Positions 6,579-62,051 of a stretch of DNA of 64,000 nucleotides are shown here, piece after piece. A model generated the notes under the pieces. That model was given only the letters and a program-made list of their open reading frames with translations. It made no database searches and had not been told where the DNA came from. Within the stretch, counting starts at the first letter, position 1. Each line of letters begins with the position of its first letter. Source of the DNA: Halorhabdus tiamatea SARL4B (GTDB lineage: Archaea > Halobacteriota > Halobacteria > Halobacteriales > Haloarculaceae); contig NC_021921.1 of the NCBI RefSeq assembly GCF_000470655.1, forward strand, positions 868,001-932,000. Direction: 5' to 3'. The position numbers and the translations under genes are program-made.

Positions 6579-6660
6579 GAGCGATACCTCCAACGGGGAC
6601 AGCGTGACTCGCCGAGAGCGTGACGCTGTCGCTCGCCCCCGACGAGTCGACGTCGGTTCA

Positions 6661-49049: not shown

Positions 49050-49260
49050 ATCCTCCGCGCCGTGAACGGCGCGGCTTCCCTGCATGGGAATACCGGCTAA
49101 CTACCGGCAGAGGGTTCCGACCCGACCTCTCCGAGCGTCATCTGCCGTGGTTGGCTCTGCTCGGTGGGGGTCGGGGCGCTGTCACAGGCACTCCCATCCC
49201 GTGGGATGTCATCGCCCGCCGGTTTCAGCGGCAGGCTCTCACCCCACGGGTCGTGGCGGT
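49050..49260 (-). ncRNA. Candidate TnpB guide RNA (reRNA/omega RNA, sotRNA)
   Basis: In IS605 elements a structured RNA is made from the 3' end of tnpB and the element end next to it. Here that is the minus-strand region from inside the last codons of tnpB to the hairpin at 49055-49074. Sense-overlapping RNAs in tnpB genes have been described in Halobacterium. Boundaries are inferred, not seen. Confidence 0.4.
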
Positions 49261-50353
49261 CAGTGATGTTGACCGCCGCGTTGATGTCCGCGTGGTACTC
49301 TGTCACCCAACACTCGTCGTTCGTACACCGGAACTCGTCGCCGTCCCGATACCCGACGTGGCCGCACTCGTGACACGTCTGCGACGTGTAGGACGGCTCG
49401 ACGTATTCGACCGGGATGCCAGACTCTCGCGCTTTGTCCTCAATGCGCTCCTGCAAGCGAGCGAACGCCCATGCGTGGAGGCGGCGATTCATCCACTCGC
49501 CGTAATCGAGGTCTTCGCGGATGTACGAGAGGTCTTCTAGCACGACGACAGGCTTCTCGAATCGGCAGGCGTACTCGATTGCCTGCCGAGACGCCTTCTC
49601 GATGATGTCTGTGAGTGCGTTCTGGTAGTGGTCGAACCGTTCGTCAATCCGCCACTCGGCGGCCTCGCGCTCTTGGAGTCGCTTGAGCGTCGTGAACATC
49701 TCTTTGCGAAGGTGACGTGCGCGACCACCGTTGATGAGTAGTGGGTCAGTCGGAGTGCCCTGCTCGCAGGCACAGCCCGCGAGCAGGTGTGCTTCGCCAA
49801 TGTCGAAGCCGACTGGTGTTACATGGTTGTCTGTCGGTTCATAGCCCGGTTCTTTAACCGGGAACTCGACGGTGACGTGAAGCGTCCACGACGTGCGGTG
49901 ACGTTGCAGGCGGAGTTGCCCTGCCGACGCTTCACCGTGTACGAGGTCGTGCCACAGTTCTTCTTGAGCGGGGTTGATACGGAGTGGTATCCAGAAGTTG
50001 GTGCCGCGACCGGGCTGTGGTACCCACCACGTAAACTCGTAGTCGCGTTCCGCCGAGTGGTCGAACTCAGCGGCTTGGTTGGTGAGTCGAACCGGGTGGT
50101 CGTCGTCCAACTCCTGTGCATCGTAGGTTCCGTGCAGTTGCGGAACGTAGTTACACAGGGCCGCCTTCGCCTGATACGGCAGGTCGTAGGGCGTCACCAC
50201 GTCACTGGTGGCGGTCATCGTCTCGCACCCGGCCTCGAACGCCTCATGGAGTCCTGCGCGGTAGGTGTCGAGCAGGTCGCACAGTTTGCGCTCTTTGTGG
50301 GCTGTCGGCGGGGCGAGCGTGGCCTCCAGCGTTTTCGTGGTTGTTGCGGTCAT
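49097..50353 (-). CDS. tnpB: TnpB RNA-guided nuclease-like protein of the IS605 element
   Basis: A 418-residue TnpB. The RuvC-type catalytic residues are all present: D184 in VGFDIGEAHLL, E273 in VVLEDLSYI and D356 in YHADINAAVN. The zinc ribbon has CHECGH and CTNDEC. The protein begins one base after the stop of tnpA. TnpB proteins cut DNA next to a short motif with a guide RNA from the element end and help keep the element after excision. With an intact active site it should be active. The C-terminal tail after residue 365 is acidic and disordered. Confidence 0.92.
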   Translation of the reverse strand: MTATTTKTLEATLAPPTAHKERKLCDLLDTYRAGLHEAFEAGCETMTATSDVVTPYDLPYQAKAALCNYVPQLHGTYDAQELDDDHPVRLTNQAAEFDHSAERDYEFTWWVPQPGRGTNFWIPLRINPAQEELWHDLVHGEASAGQLRLQRHRTSWTLHVTVEFPVKEPGYEPTDNHVTPVGFDIGEAHLLAGCACEQGTPTDPLLINGGRARHLRKEMFTTLKRLQEREAAEWRIDERFDHYQNALTDIIEKASRQAIEYACRFEKPVVVLEDLSYIREDLDYGEWMNRRLHAWAFARLQERIEDKARESGIPVEYVEPSYTSQTCHECGHVGYRDGDEFRCTNDECWVTEYHADINAAVNITDRHDPWGESLPLKPAGDDIPRDGSACDSAPTPTEQSQPRQMTLGEVGSEPSAGS

Positions 50354-50354
50354 G

Positions 50355-50747
50355 CTACTGGTTTTCCACGTAGTCCATCAGCACGTCGATGCTCACTTGA
50401 CCGGTCGTGACGAGGAAATATCCCGGTTGCCAGAACGCATCTTCGAGCGTCTGTTTCACCTCAGGGTACTCCTGCCGAATCCGGCGGGATGTGACGCCCT
50501 TGAGCGAGTTGATGAACTTCGTGAGGTCGGTGGTGGGTTTGGTCGTGAACAGGATGTGAACGTGGTCGGTGCCCCCGTCCACGTTCTTGATGTCGGCCTC
50601 GAAGTCCTCTGCAATCTCGTGAGCGACTTCAGCCACGCGCTCCAGCCGCTCATCGGTGAGAATATCGGCACGGTACTTCGTGACAGTCACGAAGTGATAC
50701 TGAAGCGCGTACACTGTGTGCGACCCGGTTTGCAGGTGATACTCCAT
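50355..50747 (-). CDS. tnpA: IS200-type Y1 (HUH) transposase TnpA
   Basis: A 130-residue single-strand transposase. It has the HUH metal motif DHVHILF (H62, H64) and the catalytic tyrosine Y126 in VLMDYVENQ. The length is normal for the family, so the element should be mobile. Directly followed by tnpB. Confidence 0.93.
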   Translation of the reverse strand: MEYHLQTGSHTVYALQYHFVTVTKYRADILTDERLERVAEVAHEIAEDFEADIKNVDGGTDHVHILFTTKPTTDLTKFINSLKGVTSRRIRQEYPEVKQTLEDAFWQPGYFLVTTGQVSIDVLMDYVENQ

Positions 50748-52561: not shown

Positions 52562-52852
52562 TCAAACTGAGTGGGACTGCTCTGAAAGCCCTCGCCAGTT
52601 CCGGTCCCGCGCCTTGCTGTCGCTGACGATGATCTCAGCGGTTACGTCCATCGTCTCGACTGCGTCTTTGATCTGCTCGATGCAAACCTCGATGCCGCGT
52701 TCCTCGTTCAACGTCGGCAGCACGACGCTCAAAGCCGGATCGACATCGCTGCCCGGACCGAGTAAGTTGCCTTCCCCTTGATACCCCGTCGACTCGCCAC
52801 CGAGGTCCCCCTCAGTCCCCGGTTGATTGCTTCTTGTGTACTCCGTGGCCAT
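52562..52852 (-). pseudogene. Truncated GT2 glycosyltransferase (AglJ/dolichol-phosphate type)
   Basis: The frame from ATG 52852 encodes a 40-residue leader followed by DPALSVVLPTLNEERGIEVC, the start of a family 2 glycosyltransferase, and goes on to AEIIVSDS. A complete enzyme would continue with a metal-binding DGS/DxD block and 150 or more residues, but here unrelated residues and a stop follow within 20 codons. Family members load sugars on dolichol phosphate for surface glycoproteins. The break indicates a deletion or recombination in this accessory stretch. Confidence 0.75.
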
Positions 52853-53036
52853 GTTGTAGCTCGCCCTCTGCTCCCGCTGACCCGATCGAATTGACTCGCG
52901 ATTCCCCACACTCCACACAGACGTACTCCCCGTCCTGCGTGAGGACGGCTGGAGCGTTACAAGCGATACACTTGATCGATGCTGGTCGGACAGACTGTGG
53001 ATACCCACCCAATTTGCTCACCACTGTGACAACCAA
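52812..53036 (-). CDS. Possible small zinc-finger protein
   Basis: A frame of up to 74 residues with paired cysteines in IKCIACNAPA and YVCVECGES, the C-x2-C ... C-x2-C layout of haloarchaeal small zinc-ribbon proteins. No ATG is present; a TTG at 53036 or GTGs at 53024/53021 would have to start it. It overlaps the start of the truncated GT2 by 41 bases. Real coding is likely but not certain. Confidence 0.45.
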   Translation of the reverse strand: MVVTVVSKLGGYPQSVRPASIKCIACNAPAVLTQDGEYVCVECGESRVNSIGSAGAEGELQHGHGVHKKQSTGD

Positions 53037-53620: not shown

Positions 53621-55201
53621 TCAATCCCCGGAGAACGGCGGACGCTCACTGCCAAAGCGTTCAGAAGCTCGCTCTACTGCCGAGGAGAACTGGTCGTCTT
53701 GCTCGGTAATCTCAGCCCAGTCGGCCAGCCCGCGCTCCCTCCGGGTCCCGGGAACCGTGTTGTCCAGAATGAACGCGATGATCCCGCCGACGGCCATGTG
53801 GACGCCGGCAATGATGTAGACCGTCCGGGAGACCATTTCGGTGCCGAGAACGGACCCCACGAGCGGGACATCGGTCAGTCCCTGGCGGAAGAGTTCGAAC
53901 CCGGAAATCTCCATCGAGGTGGCCGCAGCGTCGATGTTCCCCATGTACGCCGGGATCGCCATGCCCGCAAACAGGGCAATGCCGATGATGAAGAGGTTCC
54001 GCGAGGAGTCCAGATCGACGTACTTCAGATTCGAGAGCCCGACGGCGACGATCTGTCCGAACATGGCGATGTAGAGCCCACCGACGATCGGTCCCGGAAT
54101 CGTTGCGATCACGCGACCGAACAGTGGGATCACGCCGACGATCAACATCGCGATCGCGCCGATCTGGACGACAAAGCGCGAGGCGACGCCGGTGAGCCCG
54201 ATCGCCCCGATGTTCTCGGAGTAAGAGGTCGACCCGCCAGTGCCCATCAGCCCGGAGAAGACGTTCGCCAGCCCCTCCATGCCGATGCCGTGGTTGATCC
54301 GACGTTTCGAGGGTGCACCGACCCCCGAGATCCGGGCGACGGCGTGGTAATCTGCGAAGGACTCGATGATCGAGGCGAGCACGCCCGCGAACATCCCGAT
54401 CGCGAAAGAGAGTTCGAACCGGGGCATCCCCCACTGGAACGGATAGGGGACATAGACGAGTTGCTCGGCGGTGAGTTTCGAGAAGTCGATCGCCGCTGGA
54501 TCGCCGGCGGGGATGACCCCGAACCACGAGCCGATCGCGGCGAGCAGCCACGCGCCGACGACCCCCAGCAGGACAGGATAGAGATCGAACACGCGGGAAA
54601 CTCGGTCGAGATACTGCGAGAAGACGACGATCAAAAAGAGGGTGAGCCCGAGCAGGTACCAGTTGTTCGTCGCCGACGTGATGTCGCCCGTCGAGAACAA
54701 CGAGAGGCCGATCAACGCGACGACCGGCGCAACCACGACCGGCGAGAGGTACTCTCTGATCTTCCCGACGAGGCCGAGATACCCGATCACGACCTCCGCG
54801 ATGCCGGCCGTAATGATCGCCCCCTGTAAGAACAGGAGTTTGGCTTCCCAGCCAGCCATTCCCGAGAGCATCGGTGCCGCCGTGAGGATCGCTATGGCGG
54901 GCGCGAGCATCGAGAACGGCGCGCCCTGGACAATCGGGTACCGGTTGCCGAGCGTCGTCTGTGCCAGCGTCGCAATACCGGAGACGACGAAGAACGTCCC
55001 GATAAACTTCGCCTGCGCCGAGGCGGGCATCGAATCCCCACCAAGTGCGGTGATCAGAATAAGTGGGACGGCGATGTTCGCGCCGATCATCGTCAGGTAG
55101 TGCTGAATTCCGAGCAAGATCGAGCGCGACAGCGGCGGCCGATCCTCGATGCCATATTCCACAAGTGCGTCACCTTCGTCCGGGTCTTCGGTTTCGCCCA
55201 T
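53621..55201 (-). CDS. NCS2 nucleobase:cation symporter (xanthine/uracil permease)
   Basis: A 526-residue permease with about 14 transmembrane segments. It has the family blocks LGIQHYLTMIGANIAVPL near the start, the substrate-binding FAIGMFAGVLASIIESFADYHAV (quoted in part: SIIESFADYHAV) and the marker GMEGLANVFSGLMGTGG with TSYSENIGAIGLTGVASR. ATG 55201 (MGETED) is preferred; a longer frame to 55300 adds non-membrane residues. Imports uracil, xanthine or related bases with a cation. No purine or pyrimidine genes lie nearby. Confidence 0.92.
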   Translation of the reverse strand: MGETEDPDEGDALVEYGIEDRPPLSRSILLGIQHYLTMIGANIAVPLILITALGGDSMPASAQAKFIGTFFVVSGIATLAQTTLGNRYPIVQGAPFSMLAPAIAILTAAPMLSGMAGWEAKLLFLQGAIITAGIAEVVIGYLGLVGKIREYLSPVVVAPVVALIGLSLFSTGDITSATNNWYLLGLTLFLIVVFSQYLDRVSRVFDLYPVLLGVVGAWLLAAIGSWFGVIPAGDPAAIDFSKLTAEQLVYVPYPFQWGMPRFELSFAIGMFAGVLASIIESFADYHAVARISGVGAPSKRRINHGIGMEGLANVFSGLMGTGGSTSYSENIGAIGLTGVASRFVVQIGAIAMLIVGVIPLFGRVIATIPGPIVGGLYIAMFGQIVAVGLSNLKYVDLDSSRNLFIIGIALFAGMAIPAYMGNIDAAATSMEISGFELFRQGLTDVPLVGSVLGTEMVSRTVYIIAGVHMAVGGIIAFILDNTVPGTRRERGLADWAEITEQDDQFSSAVERASERFGSERPPFSGD

Positions 55202-55287
55202 GCCTGGCGAGCACCTGCACAGAACAGACCGAAAAACTATCGAAACGCTCGTCTCGACCGGAGCGATCAGCGCAGATATTCCAGTAC

Positions 55288-55296
55288 GTTTATACA
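55288..55296 (+). promoter_or_regulatory. TATA box of the first deacetylase gene
   Basis: GTTTATACA lies about 33 bases before ATG 55325, the right distance for a short-leader transcript. Divergent from the permease gene. Confidence 0.5.
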
Positions 55297-55324
55297 ACAC
55301 GGCGGGGAATCTTGGCGGCGTTGT

Positions 55325-56608
55325 ATGTCAGACACGAACGACGAGTCCGATACTGTCGTCAATCGACGGCAGTTCCTGACAGTCGCCGGGGCATCGGGGA
55401 TCGCGACGCTCGCCGGCTGCGGGGGAGAGACGACGGACGACCAACCGGCAACCACGTCGACGAGTACCGACCGGTCGACCGATACGCCGACGGAACGTTC
55501 ACCGACGGACACGACAACTGAGCTATCGACCGAGGCGGACACAGAGACCGAGACTGAAACGGAAGCGGAGACTGAGGCCGAAACTGAGACCGAGACGGAG
55601 ACGACAACGCCGGACCCGGAAGTCTCCCAGTCGGAGCCGGGACCGCTGGCACCGTTGCCGACGCCGGAGCCCAATGGTGTTTCGAAACCAGACGGCGAAC
55701 CGGGGAATCTCACGGTGCTCGAGTGGGCCGGCTTCGATGGCGCAGTCACCTACACCTTCGACGACGGCCAGCCATCGAACCTCGAACACTACGACGCGCT
55801 CGCGGCGACGGAGATGAACATGACCTTCTTCATCACGAGTAACGTCGGCTTCGACGGATTCGAAGACGGCTGGAAAGCGGTCGCCGCGGACGGCCACGAA
55901 CTCGGCAACCACACGGTCAGCCATCCGTACGCCGACATGACCGGCAGTTCCTTCGGCGACGCCGTCGACGACCCGGCAACCGAGATCGAGCAGTGTTCGT
56001 CCTACATTACCGAGAATCTGGGACAGGAAGGCGTCTGGACGATGGCGGCCCCCTTCGGCGACGACGGGTGGGCCGACCCGGCCGCGGCGTCCGACCTCTT
56101 TCTCAGTCGCGGCGTCGGCGGCGGCGCAGTCGCGCCCGACGGGGACGCCGATCCGTACAATCTGCCGTGTTACATGGCCCAGGAAGGAGACACCGCCGAG
56201 ACGTTCACCGGCCTGATCGACGACGCCCGCGAGGCCGGCACGTGGCAGATTTTCCTGTTCCATACGATTTCGCCGACCGACGAGGTGTGGTACGCCCCAG
56301 TCGACATCGGGGCGATCACCGACAGCGTCGAGCACGCTAAATCCGCCGGCGACGTCTGGATCGACACGTTCGCCACGATCGGCGCGTACTGGCGCGGCCA
56401 GCAGATACTCGAATCCGCCGACGTCACCGAGTCGGACGACGAGACCGTCTGGGAGTGGACGGTGCCGGAGGACTTCCCGGCCGGCCGTCGCGTCCGAGTG
56501 ACCGTCGACGGCGGGACACTCTCCCAGAACGGGGAGGAACTCGAGTGGAATTCCCACGGGTACTACGAGGTTGCACTGGACGAGGAATCCCTGACGCTGT
56601 CGGCGTAG
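55325..56608 (+). CDS. Secreted NodB-type polysaccharide deacetylase (CE4), copy 1
   Basis: A 427-residue lipoprotein. The signal has RRQFLTVAG (Tat) and the lipobox TLAGC (Cys 32). A Thr/Glu/Ala-rich linker follows (about 45-100), then the CE4 domain (about 130-355): base and metal Asp in YTFDDGQ (D146, D147), metal histidines in GNHTVSH (H196, H200), a degenerate third motif MAAPFGD and FLFHTIS as fifth motif. A beta-type C-terminal domain (about 365-427) ends LTLSA. ATG 55325 puts the signal at the start. It likely removes acetyl groups from a surface polysaccharide. A near-copy follows at 56827. Confidence 0.88.
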   Translation: MSDTNDESDTVVNRRQFLTVAGASGIATLAGCGGETTDDQPATTSTSTDRSTDTPTERSPTDTTTELSTEADTETETETEAETEAETETETETTTPDPEVSQSEPGPLAPLPTPEPNGVSKPDGEPGNLTVLEWAGFDGAVTYTFDDGQPSNLEHYDALAATEMNMTFFITSNVGFDGFEDGWKAVAADGHELGNHTVSHPYADMTGSSFGDAVDDPATEIEQCSSYITENLGQEGVWTMAAPFGDDGWADPAAASDLFLSRGVGGGAVAPDGDADPYNLPCYMAQEGDTAETFTGLIDDAREAGTWQIFLFHTISPTDEVWYAPVDIGAITDSVEHAKSAGDVWIDTFATIGAYWRGQQILESADVTESDDETVWEWTVPEDFPAGRRVRVTVDGGTLSQNGEELEWNSHGYYEVALDEESLTLSA

Positions 56609-56671: not shown

Positions 56672-56780
56672 TCCTATAGAGACATCTCATCGACTTCGAC
56701 GAGGAGGTCGAACGCGAGCGCTTCGCGAACAGTTCGAGCAGGATCGAAAGAAACGGGGCCGACCGACCAACGATGAGCAC
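56672..56780 (+). pseudogene. Relic of the 5' end of the SSSCA1-family gene
   Basis: Between the two deacetylase copies lies sequence matching the start of the gene at 58177: GACTTCGACGAGGAGG, then TCGAACGCGAGCGCTTCGCG and CAGTTCGAGCAGGATCGAAAG, with small insertions, deletions and base changes. It has no usable start (the ATG is lost) and stops after about 85 bases. It marks the right end of the duplicated unit. Confidence 0.8.
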
Positions 56781-56826: not shown

Positions 56827-58098
56827 ATGACAGATCAGGATGAGGGGGCACGAACCCGGATCGATCGTCGTCGATTTCTGACGATTGCCGGTGTATCTGG
56901 ACTCAGTACACTCGCCGGCTGTGGGGACGATAGTTCATCTAACGGAGAGAGTCCGACGGATACGTCGAACACTCCGGAACAGTCGGGAATGGTAGACCTC
57001 GGCGGCGAAACGCCAACCGAGACGGAGACCGAAACAGAGACTGAAACGGAAACTGAAACGGAGACAGAGACTGAAACGGAGACTGAAACGGAACTGGATC
57101 CAGAGGTCCCGCAGTCGGCGAACGGGCCGTTGGCTCCATTGCCGACGCCCGACCGAAACGAGATCCCGAAACCGACAGGCGACCCTGGGGGCCTCGAGGT
57201 GCTCGACTGGGCCGGTTTCGAAGGAGCCGTCACCTATACGTACAACAACGGCCAACCCGCCCAGCTCGAACACTACGACGCACTCGCAGAGACCGAGATG
57301 AACATGTCGTTTTATCTTTCCGTCAACGTCAAGGACGACGTCACGGGGTTCGAGGAGGGCTGGACGCAGGCCGGCCAGGACGGCCACGAACTCGGCAACC
57401 AAACTGTCAGCCATCCGTACGTCGATATGACCGAGAGCTCCTTCGGCGAGGCGCTTTCGGACCCAGCAACCGAGATTGAGCAGTGTAGCAAATACATCAC
57501 CGAGAATCTGGGACAGGAAGACGTCTGGACGATGGCAGGACCCTACGGCGACAGCGGCTGGAGCGTGCCGGCCGAGCGGTCCGATCTCTTCCTCAACCGC
57601 AAGCTCGGTGGCGGTACCGTTGGCCCGAACGACAACACCGACCCGTACGACTTGCCGTGTTACGTGGCCGAGGAGGGCGACACCGCCGAGACCTTCATCG
57701 ATCTGATCGACAACGCTCGGGCGAACGGTGAGTGGCAGATATTGACCTTCCACTCGATTACGCCGACCGACCAGGAGTGGTACGCCCCAGTCGACATCGG
57801 GGCGATCACCGACAGTGTCGAACACGCCAAATCCGTCGGTGACGTCTGGATCGACACGCTCGCCACGATCGGCGCGTACTGGCGGGGCCAACAGCTGCTT
57901 GCATCCGCCGACGTCTCCGAGTCGGGCGAGGAGACCGTCTGGAACTGGACGGTACCCGAGGACTTCCCGGCCGGACGCCACGTCCGGGTGACCGTCGACG
58001 GCGGTACGCTTTCACAGAATGGGGAAGAACTCGAGTGGAACTCCCACGGGTACTACGAGGTCGCACTGGACGAGGAATCCCTGACGCTGTCGGCGTAG
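56827..58098 (+). CDS. Secreted CE4-fold lipoprotein, copy 2, catalytically dead
   Basis: A 423-residue paralogue of the gene at 55325, with Tat signal RRRFLTIAG, lipobox TLAGC and a linker made of about a dozen Thr-Glu pairs (about 62-89). The fold is retained and the C-terminal 70 residues are almost identical to copy 1, but the active site is not: YTYNNGQ replaces YTFDDGQ (N140, N141) and GNQTVSH replaces GNHTVSH (Q192), so the base and two of the three metal ligands are gone while H196 remains. It can hardly be a deacetylase. A sugar-binding or scaffolding role is possible. Confidence 0.88.
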   Translation: MTDQDEGARTRIDRRRFLTIAGVSGLSTLAGCGDDSSSNGESPTDTSNTPEQSGMVDLGGETPTETETETETETETETETETETETETELDPEVPQSANGPLAPLPTPDRNEIPKPTGDPGGLEVLDWAGFEGAVTYTYNNGQPAQLEHYDALAETEMNMSFYLSVNVKDDVTGFEEGWTQAGQDGHELGNQTVSHPYVDMTESSFGEALSDPATEIEQCSKYITENLGQEDVWTMAGPYGDSGWSVPAERSDLFLNRKLGGGTVGPNDNTDPYDLPCYVAEEGDTAETFIDLIDNARANGEWQILTFHSITPTDQEWYAPVDIGAITDSVEHAKSVGDVWIDTLATIGAYWRGQQLLASADVSESGEETVWNWTVPEDFPAGRHVRVTVDGGTLSQNGEELEWNSHGYYEVALDEESLTLSA

Positions 58099-58995: not shown

Positions 58996-60159
58996 ATGGG
59001 AGACAATGACAATCGATTCAGCGTACGAGTCGGCAAGGGCGTCTCGCGTCGGGACGTGATGAAACAGCTCGGGGCACTCACGGCAGTCGGGGGACTGGCC
59101 GGTTGCCTCCAACAGGACGAGACGACGACGGAAGGTAACGGCGGCGGGGACGACAACGGCGACGGGGGAAGTGCGCCGTCGTATCAGCGCGTCGACCTGG
59201 TGCCGCCGCCGACGGAGCTGGACTTCTCATCCGAGCCACCCGAACGGGACGTACGGGTGGTGTGTCACAACGGGGCGATCTCGTTCTGGAATCCGGCGAT
59301 CGGCGGGCTCCACGACGCCGCGAGCCAACTCGGCTGGAACGCCAGCTTCACGGGACCGTCAGGTGGGTTCAGCATCGAGGAACAGGTCAATATCCTCGAG
59401 AACATCGTCACCTCGAATCCGGACGTCATCATCACGACGGTCGCGGACTCGAGCGCGTACAACCAGGTCATCAACGACGCACTGGACAACGACATCGTCG
59501 TATTGACCTTCAACACGAACAGTCTCCGTGGAGAGGGACGCCAGTACATGCGCGAGGAGTTCGGTCGCGCTTTGCCGTTCGTTGGCCAGGATCAGTACTC
59601 TTCGGGGTACGCCAACGGAATGGCCCTGCTGGACAAACTGCCCGACGACGCCAGCAAAGTCACCGTGGGGCTCGCCGACCCCGGCCACGCCGGACAGGCC
59701 GCGCGTGCGAGCGGCGCAGAAGACGCCATCAAGCAGAATTCCGACATCGAGATCACCGAGCGGGTCAACTACACCGATGCGGCGAGCGATGGCGTGACCC
59801 GTATCACGAACCATCTCCAGTCGAATCCCGAGCTGGACGGGATGATCGGAAGCGACGTCTACTCGTGGTTCATCGGCCAGGCTGCCGAGCAGGAGGGGAG
59901 AGAAGACATGATTCTCGGTGGATTCGACCTGAACCAGAACACACTGGATTACATCGAGCAGGGTGTGATGAACTACACCACCGGCCAGGACCCCTACAGC
60001 CAGGGATACTTCCCCGTCCATCAGGCCTTCGCGTACATGGAGCGGGGGATGCCCCCCAAGGAGTACCTGACGGGCGCGGAGATCATCGATCAGGAGTCGA
60101 TCGACTTCGCCCTCAAGCGGCGTAACTGGGGCGAGCTCCTGAGCTACCACGGCGTCTAA
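58996..60159 (+). CDS. CUT2 sugar-binding Tat lipoprotein (RbsB/FrcB type)
   Basis: A 387-residue periplasmic-binding-protein family 4 member. It has Tat motif SRRDVMK, lipobox GLAGC and a Gly/Asp-rich linker to about residue 55. The two-lobe ribose-type fold shows VRVVCHNGAISFWNPAIGGL, ILENIVTSNPDVIITTVADS and ILGGFDLNQNTLDYIEQG. It delivers a monosaccharide, ribose, xylose or fructose type, to the permease encoded two genes later. First gene of a three-gene operon. Confidence 0.92.
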   Translation: MGDNDNRFSVRVGKGVSRRDVMKQLGALTAVGGLAGCLQQDETTTEGNGGGDDNGDGGSAPSYQRVDLVPPPTELDFSSEPPERDVRVVCHNGAISFWNPAIGGLHDAASQLGWNASFTGPSGGFSIEEQVNILENIVTSNPDVIITTVADSSAYNQVINDALDNDIVVLTFNTNSLRGEGRQYMREEFGRALPFVGQDQYSSGYANGMALLDKLPDDASKVTVGLADPGHAGQAARASGAEDAIKQNSDIEITERVNYTDAASDGVTRITNHLQSNPELDGMIGSDVYSWFIGQAAEQEGREDMILGGFDLNQNTLDYIEQGVMNYTTGQDPYSQGYFPVHQAFAYMERGMPPKEYLTGAEIIDQESIDFALKRRNWGELLSYHGV

Positions 60160-60189
60160 ACGCCGAAAAACACGATCCAAAAGACAACT

Positions 60190-60999
60190 ATGTCGGAAGA
60201 CGACTCGATACTGCGGACAGTCGGGCTCACGAAACACTTCGGGAACATCGTCGCAGTCGAGGACGTCGACTTCTCCCTGCGTGAAGGTGAAGTCATGGCA
60301 CTGGTCGGCGACAACGGCGCCGGTAAGTCGACGCTCATCAAGGCGCTCTGTGGCGTCCACCAGCCCACGAGCGGGGACATATACGTTCGTGGGGAGGCCG
60401 TCTCCTTCGAGGACTACGGCGACGCCCGCCAGAAGGGCATCGAAACCGTCTATCAGGATCTCGCACTGGCCGAACAGCAGACGGTCGCGGCGAACGTCTT
60501 CCTCGGACACGAACCGATCCGTTCGGATTTTCTCGGCCGATACCTCGGCATCGTCGACAAGGCTGCGATGCGCGAGCGGGCGACGGAGAGTCTCGATCGC
60601 GTCCAGATCCCGGTCGATCCGGGCGCGAAAGTCCGGGATCTCTCGGGCGGCCAGCAACAGGCGGTCGCGGTCGCCCGGGCGTTACAGTCCGACCCGGACA
60701 TCCTCATCCTCGACGAGCCGACCAGCGCCCTCTCGATCGAGGGGGCGCGCAACGTCCTGCGGGTCATCGACGACCTCCGCGAACAGGGGTTGTCGATCAT
60801 CCTCATCAGCCACAACATCAGACAGGTTCTCGCGATCGCCGACCGCATCTCGGTACTCGCCCAGGGTCGGCTGACGGGCGTCCGGGACGCCGACTCGGCG
60901 AGCCGTGACGAGATCATCTCGCTGATGATGGGCGCGGACGACGAGGAGGACGTCGAGGAGTTCGACCTCTCGACTTCCGAGGAGGGGGCTCCCGCATGA
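60190..60999 (+). CDS. CUT2 sugar ABC transporter ATPase, single-domain (FrcA type)
   Basis: A 269-residue ATPase with one nucleotide-binding domain: Walker A GDNGAGKS, signature LSGGQQQAVA, Walker B ILILDEPTSAL and switch His in LISHNI. Most CUT2 systems (RbsA, XylG, AraG) have two fused domains of about 500 residues; the single-domain form is known from FrcA, the fructose transporter ATPase. It overlaps the permease gene by four bases. Confidence 0.93.
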   Translation: MSEDDSILRTVGLTKHFGNIVAVEDVDFSLREGEVMALVGDNGAGKSTLIKALCGVHQPTSGDIYVRGEAVSFEDYGDARQKGIETVYQDLALAEQQTVAANVFLGHEPIRSDFLGRYLGIVDKAAMRERATESLDRVQIPVDPGAKVRDLSGGQQQAVAVARALQSDPDILILDEPTSALSIEGARNVLRVIDDLREQGLSIILISHNIRQVLAIADRISVLAQGRLTGVRDADSASRDEIISLMMGADDEEDVEEFDLSTSEEGAPA

Positions 61000-62051
61000 G
61001 CGTCGAAACGGAAGGGGACGGATCCGAGGAGACGGCCGTCAGTCGCGGCGCGGATTCACGGCTCAGACGGCTCCTCCAGCGACGCCAGATCGGCGTCTTC
61101 ATCGGCTTTTTTCTCCTGTTCGGACTCATCGCGGTGACGCGGCCGGACCTTATCTTCGACTTCGATAGCGTCAGCACGCTGTTTCTCAACTGGGACGACT
61201 TCAGCGGGATCCTCTCGCAGTTGCTCCGGCAGGCGGCTCCCTACGTGATCATCGGGATCGGGATGACCTACCTGATGATCGGCGGCGAGTTCGACCTCTC
61301 GGTCGGGTCGATGTACGCCGTCGCTGGACTCACGTTCGCGATGTTGCTGACCGACTTCCGGCTGACCGTCACGGCAGCACTGGCGGTGGTCCTCCTCCTC
61401 GGGGCGGTCGTCGGGCTGGCCAACGGCGTCATCGTGACCAAGGTCGGCATCCCGTCGCTCATCACGACGATCGGGATGATGAGCGTCCTGCGCGGGTTCG
61501 CCTACTGGCTCACGACCGGCGGTTCGCGACAGCTCCCGGACGATCTGGGCTTGATCGACCTGTTTGGCGGGTCGATCACGGTCGCAGGGGTCGAGATCGC
61601 TTACATGGTGTTCTGGATGCTCGCCCTGATCGTCGTCTTCGGACTCGTCCTCCAGCAGACCCGCTTCGGTCACCACGTCTACGCGACGGGTGACGACGAG
61701 TCGGCCGCCGACCGGAGCGGCATCAACACCGATCGCGTCAAGGTCACGAACTTCGTCATCACGGGCGTCGTTACCGCCATCGCCGGCGTGCTCTCGATCG
61801 CGTACTTCGGCTCGATGTTCGGCTCCGCCGGACGTGGCTTCGAGCTGTTGATCATCGCCGCCGTCGTCATCGGCGGGACGAACCTCTTTGGCGGCGAGGG
61901 GAGCATCTCCGGGATGTTCCTCGGCTCACTCGTCATCGCCGTCATCCCCGTCCTCCTCGTGTTGAACGGGGTGTCCGTCGCGTTCCAGGAGACGTTGACC
62001 GGCGCGGTCATCATCGGCGCCGTGATGGTCGACATCTACCTCCGGGACTGA
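60996..62051 (+). CDS. CUT2 sugar ABC transporter permease (RbsC/FrcC type)
   Basis: A 351-residue permease with about 8-10 transmembrane segments. The block GMTYLMIGGEFDLSVGSMYAVAG (quoted in part: GGEFDLSVGSM) is diagnostic of the family, and FGHHVYATGDDESAADRSGI matches the cytoplasmic loop. Overlaps the ATPase stop by four bases (60996-60999), so translation is coupled. Confidence 0.94.
   Translation: MSVETEGDGSEETAVSRGADSRLRRLLQRRQIGVFIGFFLLFGLIAVTRPDLIFDFDSVSTLFLNWDDFSGILSQLLRQAAPYVIIGIGMTYLMIGGEFDLSVGSMYAVAGLTFAMLLTDFRLTVTAALAVVLLLGAVVGLANGVIVTKVGIPSLITTIGMMSVLRGFAYWLTTGGSRQLPDDLGLIDLFGGSITVAGVEIAYMVFWMLALIVVFGLVLQQTRFGHHVYATGDDESAADRSGINTDRVKVTNFVITGVVTAIAGVLSIAYFGSMFGSAGRGFELLIIAAVVIGGTNLFGGEGSISGMFLGSLVIAVIPVLLVLNGVSVAFQETLTGAVIIGAVMVDIYLRD

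Follow-up and report, generated by a model that had tools for sequence, protein, structure and literature searches.

The window analysed here is a stretch of 64,000 nucleotides (G000:C2:868001-932000) from the genome of Halorhabdus tiamatea SARL4B, which consists of two contigs with 3,146,160 bases. The domain family PF01522 occurs four times in this genome, and a pair of paralogous genes on the forward strand of the window is among these occurrences. Copy 1 (c1; 55325..56608, + strand; 427 residues) has all of Asp146, Asp147, His196, His200, and His313 and, judged from its sequence, is probably an acetylxylan esterase-like deacetylase lipoprotein; its residues are numbered here from the ATG at 55325, and the mechanically called ORF runs upstream to 55100. 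Copy 2 (c2; 56827..58098, + strand; 423 residues) encodes a Tat lipoprotein with a CE4/NodB-type barrel, in which the Asp-Asp pair and the first of the metal His are missing. The two copies have a common layout, i.e., a twin-Arg signal, a lipobox-like LAGC, a Thr/Glu-rich linker, the PF01522 domain, and a C-terminal domain. The PF01522 scores of c1 and c2 are 56.4 and 34.5 bits, respectively, both above the gathering cut-off of 23.1, and c1 was aligned to CE4 enzymes by phmmer. For the C-terminal domain, no Pfam match was found at E 1 except a sub-threshold CBM_48 match on c1 (E 0.08, 13.7 bits against a threshold of 22.4). An earlier note on this DNA had described the signal, linker, and C-terminal part of c2 as intact, and all of them were found in frame.

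A xanthine/uracil permease family gene (PF00860; 53621..55300, - strand) lies upstream of the pair in divergent orientation. Downstream of c2 are a ZNRD2/autoantigen-p27-like zinc-ribbon gene (PF06677; 58177..58815, + strand), the start of which was copied in the duplication described below, and the genes of a sugar-type ABC transporter (58996..62051, + strand), namely a binding lipoprotein (PF13407), an ATPase (PF00005), and a permease (PF02653). A sugar-type ABC transporter is also present downstream of the pair in the congener G005, and none was found in the stretch of the congener G006 that was read.

The most important difference between the two copies is found in the catalytic motifs, which are YNNG and NQTVSHP in c2 vs. 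FDDG and NHTVSHP in c1. N140 and N141 (AAC AAC; 57244..57249, + strand) replace the Asp-Asp of motif 1 (catalytic base and metal ligand), and Q192 (CAA; 57400..57402, + strand) replaces the first metal His of motif 2, exactly as the earlier note had read them; c1 has D146, D147, and H196 at these places. Each of the changes (GAC GAC vs. AAC AAC and CAC vs. CAA) involves one base per codon. Compared with an active CE4 deacetylase, c2 has thus neither the Asp-Asp of motif 1 nor a complete H(S/T)xxH in motif 2 (Q192 TVS H196), and it still has the second metal His (H196), the Pro of motif 3 (P239), and the catalytic His of motif 5 (H309), the last of which is invariant in 13 of 13 alignment rows. 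The Arg of motif 3 is replaced by Ala in all 13 rows (the column was matched by eye), and because c1 also lacks this Arg, its own deacetylase activity is presumed.

According to one report (PMC4505593), the Asp pair of motif 1 serves as base and metal ligand and the His of motif 2 as metal ligand; an alternative assignment, given in another (PMC10967932), makes the first Asp of motif 1 a metal ligand. Whichever assignment of roles is taken, both Asp belong to the canonical site. A paper on CtAxeA (PMC11713874) states that one MT2 His can be removed without killing the activity, so Q192 alone is weak proof, and the case for a lost activity lies with both Asp.

The pair is present in three of the seven genomes of the genus (G000, i.e., the genome of the window, G005, and G006), and the other four have neither copy. 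In all three carriers, c2 is intact with NN and Q, and c1 has DD and H. A sequencing error was considered as the source of N140, N141, and Q192 and was rejected, because the orthologues in G005 and G006 carry the identical three changes and the c1 copies retain DD and H.

Among the c1 and c2 sequences of the three species, fixed differences between the copies were found in 15 columns. In six of these, c1 and all five tabulated haloarchaeal outgroups share one residue, and the six columns are 140, 141, and 192, plus 161 (T to S), 259 (G to K), and 260 (V to L); the protein from Bacillota departs from the shared residue at 141 (Ala) and 260 (Ile). The homologue of G070 is outside the outgroup table, and has itself DD and H. 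The concentration of fixed c2 changes at 140, 141, and 192 is more than chance. One inserted residue, V172, is fixed in c2 in addition to G259K.

The stretch that separates c1 from c2 contains a fossil (56686..56757, + strand; about 72 bp by alignment) derived from the 5′ end of the ZNRD2-like gene. The same fossil, covering residues 1-30 with an internal stop, was found between the copies in G006 by tblastn (locus L050), and the resemblance in G005 is limited to a short stretch. The pair therefore arose by tandem duplication of a unit that comprised the deacetylase gene and the start of its ZNRD2-like neighbour. In the congeners G001 and G002, which lack the deacetylase, the permease gene directly adjoins the ZNRD2-like gene; G003 and G004 also have the ZNRD2-like gene, with no intact permease gene next to it in the stretches read and with a partial permease match of 87 residues in G003. 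The three carriers cluster apart from the other four genomes with 98% support in a tree of rpoB and gyrA, in which G004 is represented by gyrA only, and with gyrA alone G000 joins G001 at 53%. The simplest reading is a single origin of the pair in the common ancestor of the carriers. The permease and ABC genes of the window (53621-55300 and 58996-60999) match those of G001 at 82-93% and those of G005 at 75-83%; since G000 groups with G005 and G006 by rpoB, the region around the locus seems to have undergone recombination.

To see how far the altered motifs spread, relatives were collected from wider taxonomic samples. ‌Matches were found in 8 of 146 genomes of the family, 10 of 391 genomes of the class (two of them weak, E 3.5e-6 and 3.3e-4), and 8 of 392 genomes of the phylum (six weak, E 4e-4 to 6e-8); these samples overlap, the class and phylum sets are subsets of larger groups, and motifs were read from full-length matches only. 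All six single-copy haloarchaeal homologues (G048, G049, G069, G070, G089, and G311) have DD and H. Within the class to which the Bacillota genome G763 belongs, five full-length bacterial homologues were read: four (L055, L056, L057, and L058) have DD, that of L005/L041 has DA, and the first His of motif 2 is present in all five; L059 holds a partial gene, and its motif 1 is unread. Since neither NN nor Q was found in any of these full-length relatives (six haloarchaeal and five bacterial), NN and Q are, among all proteins examined, restricted to the c2 clade. A scan of genome contigs gave one locus, L005. The protein encoded there (L005:5001-5945, a Bacillota MAG) has FDAG, with the second Asp of motif 1 changed to Ala and both His of motif 2 kept; because its near relative in L055 has FDDG, the DA appears to be an independent substitution of one residue. 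With c1 as query, no relative was found among viruses. Plasmids gave one full-length match, on Halocatena salina NZ_CP096022.1 (apparently the same contig as in G049), and two further partial matches at about 26%. The homologue of G070 (L026:5576-6859) has an apparent frameshift near the C-terminal domain, where the match splits at 6658/6663; since its reading frame is interrupted there, close to the end, this homologue was excluded from both the trees and the codon models.

The codon model for the barrel (192 codons, 12 sequences) gave omega values of 0.515, 0.141, 0.101, and 0.068 for the c2 stem, the c2 crown, c1, and the outgroup, respectively. Fixing the c2 crown at 1 cost 36.9 lnL units, and equating it with c1 cost 0.71. 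Since c1 is paraphyletic on the best barrel tree, omega was refitted on this best nucleotide topology (188 codons), and the corresponding values were 0.354, 0.150, 0.094, and 0.081, with costs of 33.2 and 1.3; the constrained orthologue tree differs from the best tree, yet was unrejected (AU 0.19). The c2 crown thus has an omega of 0.14-0.15, and omega = 1 is strongly rejected for it. On the c2 stem omega = 1 was not rejected, and the test that sets the stem equal to the rest merges the c1 and outgroup branches too, which makes it an impure test of the stem. Pairwise omega values (NG86) were about 0.15, 0.24, and 0.28 for c2 and 0.16, 0.21, and 0.13 for c1, and those of c2 are within or near the range of five flanking genes (0.03-0.31). 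The c2 gene changed fast on its stem and then came under purifying selection that is indistinguishable from that on c1, a pattern of burst followed by constraint. The earlier note had held that c2 was kept rather than decaying, and this is borne out by the intact frames with the same losses in three of three species together with the low omega.

This constraint is not focused on the former active site. In the c2 trio, 9 of 52 sites vary in the motif neighbourhoods vs. 27 of 145 elsewhere in the barrel (p = 1), and the corresponding numbers in the c1 trio are 5 of 52 and 44 of 143 (p = 0.0025). Since the motif neighbourhoods of c2 are no more conserved than the rest, they give no special support for a guarded binding pocket. 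Silent divergence between species is low in the c2 barrel (window 57178-57810), where NG86 dS is 0.28-0.36, compared with 0.52-0.91 for c1 and 0.45-1.14 for the five flanking genes; this low value could stem from exchange between species or from strong constraint on codons.

The C-terminal part has a different history from the barrel. The last 70 residues were noted earlier as nearly identical between the copies, and indeed 63 of 70 match and the final 31 are identical. In a scan of sites over the six sequences, the best break was placed at c2 residue 318, just past motif 5, and 59 of 68 sites fit it; this break was picked after inspection of the sites, and label shuffling gave an equally good one in 0 of 2000 trials. 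Sites that unite orthologues reach alignment column 210, and beyond it sites that unite the copies of the same genome predominate. The barrel groups by orthologue, and pairing within genomes is rejected for it (AU p 5.3e-9); the C-terminal part groups by genome, and orthologue pairing is rejected for it (AU p 5.6e-13). The homogenised part extends in c2 from about residue 318 to the end (57778..58098, + strand; site scan and AU tests), and its counterpart in c1 is at about 56288-56608. A recent duplication, considered as the cause of the identical C-terminus, is rejected by the same AU tests. The near-identity is concerted evolution within each genome, most simply by gene conversion, and is uninformative on recent divergence of c2 or selection on it. 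The view in the earlier note that the rest of c2 had been preserved thus holds for the intactness of its parts and fails for the near-identical C-terminus, which was homogenised in each genome. Nine sites misfit the break model, and four of them are at the very start of the alignment, where a second conversion tract is possible.

AlphaFold2 models (c1 55622-56605 and c2 57112-58095) had mean pLDDT values of 80.0 for c1 and 77.6 for c2; these refer to the single best models, and the five models ranged widely, for c2 from 77.6 down to 49.9. The c2 model has the distorted TIM barrel of the NodB fold. Both models match CE4 structures. Those matched by c2 include two acetylxylan esterases, 7fbw (Z 16.5, rmsd 2.8, 173 residues) and 2c71 (Z 16.1, rmsd 2.9, 176 residues), as well as the pseudoenzymes 4m1b (Z 15.5, rmsd 3.1, 180 residues), 7bkf (Z 15.1, rmsd 3.4, 179 residues), and 2vyo (Z 16.1, rmsd 3.0, 183 residues). 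The claim that the c2 fold is intact is thus supported both by the PF01522 score and, as far as a predicted model can tell, by these matches to CE4 proteins. The top structural match of both copies is the turret protein of Haloferax tailed virus 1 (HFTV1; 8qpg; Z 19.6 and 19.3), above the listed cellular CE4 chains, and the allantoinase PuuE (3cl6; Z 16.6, rmsd 2.9, 206 residues for c2) is tied with several CE4 chains. All these matches are at the level of the predicted fold, with 9-24% identity, and do not imply function.

Information on the possible substrate was obtained from the neighbours of the single-copy homologues; Pfam scans of neighbours covered selected ORFs only (30 proteins). GH10 xylanase genes are near the homologue in three of six haloarchaeal loci (L023, L026, and L028), glucuronate isomerase genes in two (L026 and L028), a mannonate dehydratase gene in at least one (L026), and esterase genes in two (a GDSL type in L028 and a BD-FAE type in L024). 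In L025 and L027 two ORFs each were scanned and none was of xylan type, with a cellulase-like protein (PF12876) in L027. A GDSL esterase gene precedes the bacterial homologue in L055, and by eye also in L056 and L041. The xylanase, glucuronate, and esterase neighbours favour c1 as an esterase on acetylated (glucurono)xylan. No xylan context was found at the locus in the genus of the window, where the neighbours tested were the nucleobase-type permease, the ZNRD2-like gene, and the ABC transporter. The genus Halorhabdus is known for polysaccharide degradation.

With a homologous fold, lost catalytic residues, and retained constraint, c2 would be classed from its sequence as a CE4-fold pseudoenzyme. 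We consider it most likely, with a probability of roughly 0.6, that c2 is such a pseudoenzyme, duplicated, kept by selection, and acting as a lipid-anchored, polymer-binding, non-catalytic protein; the loss of activity and of metal, the substrate, and the binding role are what we infer. The role of binding or competition that the earlier note proposed for c2 seems plausible. The history is read as follows. A lipid-anchored deacetylase gene, the ancestor of c1, was duplicated along with the beginning of the adjoining gene in the common ancestor of the three species; on the c2 stem, Asp, Asp changed to Asn, Asn and His to Gln, by which the site would have lost its base and been left with a single metal ligand out of three; later, c2 was held under purifying selection, and its C-terminal part was repeatedly overwritten from c1 or vice versa. 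Tethered to the membrane, c2 might keep a glycan with O-acetyl groups, probably xylan or glucuronoxylan, at the surface of the cell, c1 would de-esterify the held glycan, and the neighbouring sugar ABC transporter would import the products. The tethered binding partner is suggested by analogy, from the xylan context of the single-copy relatives, the ABC transporter, and the precedent of BA0330/BA0331 of Bacillus anthracis. A more specific form of this reading, which we put forward only tentatively, is that of a domain-split pair, in which conversion unifies the C-terminal domain, selection keeps one barrel catalytic and the other not, and the isosteric amides (Asp to Asn twice and His to Gln) allow c2 to bind acetyl-xylan uncut as a binding module in tandem with c1.

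BA0330/BA0331 are, like c1 and c2, two lipid-anchored CE4-type paralogues. These lipoproteins showed no deacetylase activity in assays and bound polymer, and mutants in the catalytic Asp complemented, according to PMC4505593. They differ in that their Asp-His-His metal triad is complete, an Fn3 domain is present, and their NodB topology is of another class (PMC4505593 and PMC10967932), whereas in c2 the lipobox-like LAGC is present and the triad is lost. An envelope role of this kind, in which c2 links a surface polymer with the membrane or S-layer and aids shape or osmotic stability with no connection to xylan uptake, is a less likely alternative. It would fit the binding of peptidoglycan and the support of salt tolerance and shape by BA0330/BA0331 (PMC4505593). 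The lipobox and long linker of c2 and the lack of special conservation around its motifs agree with such a role, and the family context, which suggests xylan use, does not. Haloarchaea have no peptidoglycan, which counts against a role like that of BA0330/BA0331, and the absence of both copies from four of seven congeners argues against a general envelope part.

The burst on the stem followed by strong constraint would also fit a gain of function, and c2 could have turned into a hydrolase that needs no metal, a route that the PuuE allantoinases took with the same fold; PMC10967932 describes PuuE as functioning without metal, and this ability of the fold also counts against the pseudoenzyme reading of c2. 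The structural match of c2 to PuuE and the G259K fixed in c2 only are in line with this improbable reading. However, c1 matches PuuE equally (Z 16.7), so the likeness appears to be to the fold, Asn, Asn, and Gln are poor bases, and the motif surroundings have no extra conservation. PuuE is an enzyme of purine catabolism, and a nucleobase-type permease gene adjoins the pair, but c2 is a surface lipoprotein. The viral match raises the thought that c2 is a decoy occupying surface glycans against enzymes or viral deacetylase-like turrets. The HFTV1 turret, a virion protein sharing the haloarchaeal surface context, has a deacetylase-like domain with zinc sites and was proposed by its authors to modify host surface glycans (PMC12494034); we regard the decoy as very improbable, because the likeness to 8qpg is one of fold only, the turret chain is absent among the matches listed in the profile search against PDB sequences, and c1 as query gave no viral relative. 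Least credible of all is the view that c2 is a duplicate in decay, or that it serves only in gene conversion and its product has no function. The three lost catalytic groups, the relaxed motif neighbourhoods, and the homogenised C-terminal part might be taken in this way, but c2 is intact in every carrier, omega = 1 is rejected by 33-37 lnL units, and its pairwise omega is like that of the flanking genes.

Returning to the pseudoenzyme reading, c1 and c2 share with the CE4 acetylxylan esterases (PF01522, NodB; 2c71, 7fbw, and 7ax7) the fold, the family model, the order of motifs, and relatives that adjoin xylanases; they differ in the lack of the Asp-Asp pair and first metal His in c2, and in the invariant Ala in place of the motif-3 Arg throughout the c1/c2 subfamily. 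CE4 pseudoenzymes are already known: 4M1B is named as one and 2VYO judged probably inactive in PMC10967932, PDB titles label BA3943 a "CE4 family pseudoenzyme", and motif 1 is altered in BA3943 and BA0150 (PMC6115787). Like c2, BA0150 (4m1b), BA3943 (7bkf), and EcCDA (2vyo) have the NodB fold with catalytic or metal residues lost, and the likeness of c1 and c2 to them is only at fold level (12-16% identity). They are bacterial or microsporidian, whereas c2 is an archaeal lipoprotein beside a complete paralogue. A search of titles and abstracts, with partial coverage of the literature, found no archaeal CE4 pseudoenzyme, and the archaeal setting, the tandem pair of a complete and a dead copy, and the split into homogenised and divergent parts appear to be new. 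Inactive copies of enzymes are common and seldom have a clear history. Here the duplication fossil, the stem burst, the later constraint, and the homogenisation limited to one domain are all readable from three related species, and the complete paralogue next door provides an internal control. Should c2 bind its polymer and leave it uncut, the pair would be a natural test, in an archaeon, of the conversion of a catalytic domain into a binding module.

Two minor observations were made by eye on the far side of the permease gene. A short ORF (window 52562-53008) resembles the beginning of a family-2 glycosyltransferase and is apparently truncated, and two adjoining ORFs on the minus strand (window 49097-50747) look like TnpA and TnpB of the IS200/IS605 type.
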